DNA of 51,087 nt, taken from assembly GCA_012517325.1 (NCBI GenBank), contig JAAYVF010000106.1, forward strand, positions 1 through 51,087, read 5' to 3'. Of the stretch, positions 6,245-7,579 are shown piece after piece. A program made the position numbers and the translations under genes. The notes under the pieces are model-generated. The model worked only from the letters and a program-made list of their open reading frames with translations, did not search any database and was not told where the DNA came from. Position 1 is the first letter of the stretch. Every line of letters starts with the position of its first letter. This DNA comes from Myxococcales bacterium (lineage in GTDB: Bacteria; Lernaellota; Lernaellaia; Lernaellales; Lernaellaceae).

Positions 6245-7579
6245 CTATTCGGGCAGGTTCTCGATGTCGGCGGCCGTGCAGAATTCGGGCGCCGTCAGCG
6301 GGTTGCAGCGGGACGGGTTCCCCGCGGGAATCTCCACAAAATATTCGTACTCGTTGTCCGGCGACGGGAAATCGGTGCTGATGAAATGCGCCCCCGACGC
6401 CAGCGCGGCCTCGACGCGCGTGTAATCGTTCTGTTCCGGCTCGTCGCAGCAATCACCCGCCATCGTCCGCACCAGGAAGCCTTGCGTCACCGCGTCGCGG
6501 ATCGCCGCTTCGTCGCCGATCGGGTCGTTCAGCGGCATGATGCCGGCGTAGGAATCGTCGGGCGTCGAATCGGTGAACATCAGCGCCCCTTCCAGATCGG
6601 GATACAGCGCGTGGTAGTTGGCGAGGAATTCATCCAGGCTGTGGGCGTGAAAAATGATCTTGTTGCGCGTCGCCCCCAGCGTCGGCCAGCCGGCGGTCAG
6701 GATCGCCTCGCGCAGCGTGTCGTACTCGCCCCGCACGTCGTCCGGCGTCAGGATGCGGTCCCGCGGCCAGACCGAGAGGATATCGGCCTCGACATCCTCG
6801 GCGTGCGCGGCGATGTCGCTGATGTTCAGGTCGTTCTTCGGTTCCAAAAACACCAGGATCGGGTGGTGGCCCGGATGGCCGTCGGACCATTCCTTCAGGG
6901 CCGCCAGGCAATCGGTGAAAACCTCGCACGTCGACAGCGGGTCGATGATCGGCGCGTGGAAGACGCGCAAGCCTTGGTTCGGAATCCAGTGCAAGTCCAG
7001 TTCGAACTGGCGCACGCCGATTGCCGCCTGCTCGTCGAGCAGTTTGTGCGTGTAGTTGTAATCGGGCCAGATCAGCAGCGGCGGCTCGATGTGGTAGCTG
7101 TTGTGCGTGCCCAGTCCCTGCAAATCGTTGACGCGCAACAGGTCGTCGTTCGGGTAATCCGGGCTCTCCGGCGTGGTGTCGTCGTCATCGCCGGCGTCGC
7201 AATCCGCGGGGCAGCGGCATTTGTTTTCTTCCGGGCCGCAGATTCCGTCGCCGCAGTTCGTGCAATAGGTGAACCCATCGCAGGCCGTACACTCGCCGGT
7301 CTCCTCGTTCACCGTATCGCAGCCGACCGAGTCGAGACCGGCGCAGCATTCTAGGTGATCCGGCACGATCGCATAGCCGCTCCCCTCGCCGACGCAGTTG
7401 TCGTCATCGTCGCCCGTATCGTTGTCGTCATTGTCGTTATCGTTGTCGTCGTTATCGTCGTCGTCATCTTGAGCCTGCCCCGGACTTGATCCGGGGTCGT
7501 CATCGTCGCCGCACGCGGCGCCGAGAGCCGTCAGACAAAACAAGGCGAAAAAAACGGCCCAGCATGATTTCGCGCTCAT
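6245..7579 (-). CDS. Lipoprotein with Asp-rich linker and Ca-dependent PI-PLC-like phosphodiesterase domain
   Basis: The start at 7579 has GGAGG just upstream and gives 444 residues. A signal peptide leads to a Cys at ALGAAC, a near-canonical lipobox. An Asp/Asn linker follows, then a Cys-rich segment with CGDGICGPEENKC and CPADC. The catalytic domain shows GTHNSYH (first catalytic His), FELDLHW (metal-binding acidic residues), RVFHAP (second His), LVFLEPK and HFISTDFP. These fit the PLC-like phosphodiesterase fold, closest to the Ca-dependent PI-PLC-C1 type. The expected reaction is cleavage of a phosphodiester lipid or glycerophosphodiester outside the cytoplasm. A palindromic DNA repeat (7478-7496) lies inside the linker coding region. 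Confidence 0.82.
   Translation of the reverse strand: MSAKSCWAVFFALFCLTALGAACGDDDDPGSSPGQAQDDDDDNDDNDNDNDDNDTGDDDDNCVGEGSGYAIVPDHLECCAGLDSVGCDTVNEETGECTACDGFTYCTNCGDGICGPEENKCRCPADCDAGDDDDTTPESPDYPNDDLLRVNDLQGLGTHNSYHIEPPLLIWPDYNYTHKLLDEQAAIGVRQFELDLHWIPNQGLRVFHAPIIDPLSTCEVFTDCLAALKEWSDGHPGHHPILVFLEPKNDLNISDIAAHAEDVEADILSVWPRDRILTPDDVRGEYDTLREAILTAGWPTLGATRNKIIFHAHSLDEFLANYHALYPDLEGALMFTDSTPDDSYAGIMPLNDPIGDEAAIRDAVTQGFLVRTMAGDCCDEPEQNDYTRVEAALASGAHFISTDFPSPDNEYEYFVEIPAGNPSRCNPLTAPEFCTAADIENLPE
7478..7496. repeat. Perfect palindrome inside the linker coding sequence
   Basis: CCCCGGA and TCCGGGG form a perfect 7-bp inverted repeat around a 5-base loop. The element plus its flank (about 7466-7497) encodes PGSSPGQAQ within an otherwise Asp/Asn-only linker. 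A diverged copy coding for the same peptide is present at 19090-19118 in another lipoprotein gene. Confidence 0.75.

Follow-up and report, generated by a model that had tools for sequence, protein, structure and literature searches.

The closest known kinds of sequence to the palindrome described here are the Rickettsia palindromic elements (RPEs), the REPs and the cyanobacterial SDRs, from which it differs in its tail, in the absence of a transposase link and in its confinement to one protein position. Small dispersed repeats (SDRs), reportedly described in cyanobacteria by Elhai et al. in 2008 (as cited in PMC3116915), are said to be mobile hairpin sequences of 21–27 nt that encode no transposase and insert into other repeats. 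We know of SDRs only from cyanobacteria, and we know of no description of an SDR that was captured as a lipoprotein linker. RPEs are small palindromic repeats that lie in frame in many protein genes, including housekeeping genes, and REPs are short multi-copy hairpins with a conserved end motif, a GTAG or CGTC tag, that are sometimes nested with other palindromes (PMC3733652).

Like RPEs, with which we compare it by description, the palindrome analyzed here is an in-frame insert in unrelated genes (27 copies in the host genome; GlmU elsewhere), but it belongs to a 24-nt element that consists of a hairpin and a GGCAGGCTC tail and is found in many phyla, and in the host genome it is confined to one protein position and has no intergenic copies. 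It resembles SDRs, as these are described, in its 24-nt unit and in its precise insertion, often into other repeats. The locus links tiny non-coding palindromes with the evolution of protein linkers, subjects that are usually studied apart, and very small mobile DNA appears to have turned into a reusable protein linker.

Results

The palindrome and its host genes

In the window, by which we mean the whole 51,087-nt stretch of DNA that was analyzed, the palindrome CCCCGGATCAAGTCCGGGG lies at 7478–7496 in a reverse-strand gene and forms a perfect 7-bp stem with a 5-nt loop (CCCCGGA-TCAAG-TCCGGGG; −14.8 kcal/mol as folded RNA). The host gene (6245–7606, reverse strand) encodes an Asp-linker lipoprotein with a Ca2+-dependent phosphoinositide phospholipase C (PLC) domain (PI-PLC-C1, PF16670, E = 7.5e-70), and its linker after the lipobox Cys at 7513 reads CGDDDD-PGSSPGQAQ-DDDDDNDDN.... 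The PGSSPGQAQ segment is encoded by the 27-nt in-frame cassette CCCGGATCAAGTCCGGGGCAGGCTCAA (7469–7495, reverse strand), which together with the preceding C gives the palindrome; within the cassette, a 24-nt core, CCGGATCAAGTCCGGGGCAGGCTC (7471–7494, reverse strand), comprises the hairpin and the GGCAGGCTC tail and is identical to the element of many phyla. A second gene, on the forward strand (19010–20239), encodes an Asp-linker lipoprotein with a lipobox, and a Pfam search with this protein gave no significant match, which leaves its originally proposed propeller-type fold putative. Its linker, CDDDDD-PGSSPGQAQ-DDDD, derives from a diverged palindrome copy, CCCCGGCTCAAGTCCGGGA (19090–19108), and the corresponding diverged in-frame cassette is CCCGGCTCAAGTCCGGGACAGGCTCAG (19091–19117). 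The original prediction of a perfect palindrome encoding PGSSPGQAQ inside the Asp linker of a PLC-like lipoprotein, and of a diverged copy near 19090 encoding the same peptide in a lipoprotein on the opposite strand, is thus borne out by both in-frame units and by the Pfam assignment. Its description of the peptide as the sole part of these linkers other than Asp and Asn was too strict, as the PLC linker has Thr-Gly too.

The window contains two matches to the palindrome pattern versus 0.02 expected from dinucleotide shuffles, and shuffle and reversed-pattern controls ruled out chance similarity of Asp-rich coding DNA. Further Asp/Asn-rich GAY-repeat stretches occur in the window at 9230–9440, 10089–10344, 21187–21320, 23313–23590, 47858–48100 and 50404–50687; none has the palindrome, and some lie in other parts of genes. 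Upstream of the second lipoprotein gene, a tRNA-Sec gene (18709–18806) is accompanied by a 258-nt direct repeat, 93% identical between its copies (13937–14194 and 18477–18734), one end of which falls inside tRNA-Sec and the other copy of which lies 4.5 kb upstream, a pattern suggestive of an element that integrated at the tRNA-Sec end or duplicated it.

The same 24-mer in other bacteria

The exact 24-mer CCGGATCAAGTCCGGGGCAGGCTC was found in at least 120 genome-contig stretches of many phyla (Proteobacteria, Nitrospira, Chloroflexota, Fibrobacter, Bacteroidota and others among the matches listed) versus a calculated chance expectation of ~0.002 for a 24-mer in this 257-Gb collection, with up to 68 copies per genome at ≤3 mismatches. 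The borders of the element are sharp, with CC before it and T after it in 80 of the 115 distinct junctions among the matches listed. Its flanks are self-complementary beyond shuffled flanks (mean −13.2 vs −10.6, sd 0.23) because the element often occupies the apex of another palindromic repeat. Most copies of the Rhodanobacter/Dyella repeat GGAGCGCACCC^TGTGCGCG are empty (19 nt), and the few filled sites contain exactly 24 extra nucleotides, except for one with 22. In Rhodanobacter sp. B05 and Soil772, the GlmU protein contains eight additional in-frame residues, PGSSPGQA, which appear as a single clean eight-residue gap when the B05 protein is aligned to PDB 7k47, and a COX15-CtaA family protein of Luteimonas contains the same peptide. 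Stem variants covary across genomes (CCGTA..TACGG and CCGAA..TTCGG, for example); among variants from the collected genome copies, and counting only pairs inside the 24-mer, the covariation score was 0.218 vs 0.064, a level reached in 0 of 500 shuffles.

Thus, our results show that the window palindrome is a copy of a dispersed 24-nt hairpin element with a 5–7 bp stem, a TCAAG/TCGAG-type loop and a conserved GGCAGGCTC tail, and that this element is inserted with precision. The usual site lies between CC(C) and T; insertions often occupy the tip of another palindromic repeat and sometimes fall in frame within genes. The filled and empty sites, together with the GlmU inserts, offer clean cases in which the movement of a 24-nt sequence between phyla without a known enzyme can be tested. 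No paper containing the DNA or the peptide sequence turned up in the literature that was searched.

The element shares with REPs, BIMEs and REPINs a short conserved hairpin (94.6% paired across genomes), its multi-copy occurrence and its nesting with other palindromes, but it has no GTAG or CGTC tag at its border, where the conserved tail is GGCAGGCTC, and other palindromic repeats serve as its insertion targets. It also differs from REPIN/RAYT systems in lacking consistent co-occurrence with a Y1 transposase: PF01797 was found in some carriers but was not detected in four of the richest (G110, G111, G120 and G124), several of the genomes being drafts. RAYT is therefore not the general mover of the element, and a RAYT-driven REP is unsupported.

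One Acetobacteraceae metagenome-assembled genome contains three tandem, back-to-back copies of the 24-nt element (G124:C111:47678–47749), which suggests insertion of the element at its own border. The exact 24-mer was also present in 12 IMG/VR viral-contig stretches (L387–L398), several of them near-identical or copies of one sequence; the element could be carried by phages, or by proviruses that were misassigned.

Copies in the host genome

Had the genome contained no further copy, the original prediction would have been refuted. This is not the case: the core, the palindrome and the tail, used as queries against the 5.25-Mb host genome (134 contigs), yielded about 27 relatives of the palindrome, whereas reversed-pattern controls gave at most 0–3 matches. 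All 27 copies lie in genes for signal-peptide proteins, in one reading frame and one orientation, and no intergenic copy within 3 mismatches was found in the 5.25 Mb; the other, weaker matches, such as L018, L019 and L036, resemble chance similarities within ordinary genes. Twenty-six copies follow a lipobox Cys, mostly at a distance of 3–10 residues and in two cases at 18–23, and one (L003) follows an apparent type I signal peptide. The motif occurs in 9–10 of the 52 Asp-linker lipoproteins encoded by 784 kb of contigs, mostly chosen for containing copies, and is therefore a minority feature and not a general lipoprotein signal. A universal lipoprotein signal is ruled out, as most Asp-linker lipoproteins lack the motif.

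The encoded peptides extend from PGSSPGQAQ through SESDSGQAQ, PESPSGQAQ and AGSSSEQPQ to PSTSSGQAD. At the DNA level, five copies are identical over 27 nt and the mean pairwise identity over this length is 81% (24 copies), and the same codons, GGA, TCA, AGT and GCT, which seem out of place in a GC-rich genome, are repeated across unrelated proteins. Because a left junction, GAC-C, and a right junction, A(A/G)-GAY, both recur in most copies, a linker of GAY codons alone would be lengthened by a 27-nt unit. Only one gene pair has a clearly longer tract in common: L007 and L038 share a further 57 nt after the motif, with 5 mismatches and no detected homology of the protein bodies, giving a tract score of 42 vs a background maximum of 28 for anchored pairs. 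In addition, S/A-A-A/T-G comes next in four of the five PGSG-type copies. Both observations fit the copying of linker tracts between genes, a process that we infer from these sequences. The restriction of the longer tract to one gene pair weighs against copying, as does the end of upstream identity at the lipobox, which would require very short recombination tracts.

Relatives of the host and a second palindrome

The palindrome pattern had no convincing match in two genomes of the same family and four of the same class, and a protein-degenerate pattern search in the class gave matches at chance level only. Orthologues of the PLC lipoprotein (56–64% identical) were compared for the insert, as originally proposed: those in G003 and G004 have Asp linkers without the palindrome, and the G005 orthologue has a different palindrome, CCCTTCGACGAGCTCAGGG, which encodes PSTSSG in the same slot. 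A related palindrome, CCTTCGACAAGCTCAGGGCAGGCT (PSTSSGQA), and its close variants fill this slot in four lipoproteins of G006, one of G004 and one of G000. This second palindrome occupies the same slot in the sister family, so that hairpin-derived inserts have been accepted there repeatedly within the lineage. One variant, PSAGSGQAA (L376; G005:C13, position 1500), lies in frame in a 721-aa open reading frame that is apparently not a lipoprotein gene.

Discussion

The original prediction offered two explanations, a mobile palindromic element that inserts into linkers or linker cassettes copied between genes, and each stands in part. The first holds for origin: in other bacteria this 24-mer is inserted precisely, in GlmU also in frame, and the window palindrome very probably derives from a mobile hairpin element. 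It probably does not hold for ongoing insertion in this genome. For the spread within the genome, capture of a single insertion followed by linker copying is, on balance, the probable course as judged from sequence comparison, and we favor it over repeated RPE-style insertion because there are no intergenic copies and because one frame, orientation, junction and slot are used throughout. In an Asp-linker lipoprotein gene, one insertion of the element would have come to lie in frame directly behind the signal peptide, where it would read as the flexible peptide PGSSPGQA(Q). Short-tract recombination, helped by GAY-repeat DNA on both sides, would then have copied the 27-nt cassette to this same position in about two dozen lipoprotein genes that are for the most part unrelated, and the copies would since have diverged. 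Because the slot is an unstructured spacer, it would tolerate inserts, and the cassette would therefore act as a linker module, one that is probably selectively near-neutral. These lipoproteins illustrate how DNA of this kind can turn into a protein part that recurs in frame.

Ongoing or repeated independent insertion of the hairpin, in the manner of RPEs or SDRs, with selection leaving only in-frame copies in tolerant lipoprotein linkers, seems to us rather unlikely. Other bacteria do carry this 24-mer as a genuine, precise insertion, which in GlmU is read in the PGSSPGQA frame, the genome copies include stem variants known elsewhere (CCGAA..TTCGG in L013 and G063), and a second palindrome sits in the same slot in G004–G006, all as repeated insertion would predict. 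Such insertion should, however, have left intergenic copies in 5.25 Mb and should not have placed all 27 copies in one of five open frame and orientation choices. Moreover, the recurrent C...AA junction would require either that every target offered a Gln codon or that the inserted unit was 27 nt long, and the slot is always N-terminal, though long Asp-rich stretches lie elsewhere in window genes. Three copies (L013, L050 and L051) in which paired changes keep the stem but alter the peptide count against copying, and separate arrivals or selection at the DNA or RNA level would account for them more naturally.

Selection might instead act on the peptide, if PGSSPGQAQ-type sequences after the acylated Cys served as a sorting or surface-export tag and the DNA similarity reflected recent ancestry. 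The constant position after the lipobox, the retention of GQA in most variants and the ..SSGQA that a different palindrome yields in sister-family genomes are consistent with such a tag, which we nevertheless consider improbable: about 10 of 52 Asp-linker lipoproteins carry the peptide, in a sample of mostly copy-bearing contigs, the copies are strongly identical at the codon level, several alter the peptide while keeping the DNA palindrome, and in unrelated phyla the identical DNA occurs as a repeat. Hardly more credible, and if anything slightly less so, is an RNA device in which an mRNA hairpin ~25–45 codons after the start pauses ribosomes during signal-peptide engagement. A stable hairpin (−14.8 kcal/mol) in constant position and orientation would suit this role, as would the stem covariation within the genome, which is modest (2 of 500 shuffles) and can be read as a DNA-level constraint or as inherited element variants; most Asp-linker lipoproteins, however, have no hairpin, the PST palindrome folds weakly (−3.7 kcal/mol) and several genome copies have broken stems (L017 and L038). 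Plain shared ancestry, with the carriers as duplicates of one lipoprotein whose bodies diverged or were swapped, is very improbable, as homologous bodies are found in L005/L011, L008/L038 and L058/L062 but the signal peptides and most bodies of the carriers have no detectable homology, yet their 27 nt average 81% identity.

Beyond capture and copying in this genome, we tentatively raise a broader possibility, which we hold to be less than probable: that the 24-nt hairpin-plus-tail is stand-alone, trans-phylum mobile DNA that is moved by a common host function, with no dedicated Y1 transposase, and that in this little-known bacterial lineage such hairpins were repeatedly domesticated as an interchangeable linker module directly behind lipoprotein signal peptides.

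The readings of the element that the host genome does not use are PDQVRGRL, RIKSGAGS, EPAPDLIR and ACPGLDPG, and one further reading contains a stop. The frame bias may reflect selection for the hydrophilic, flexible PGSSPGQA reading.
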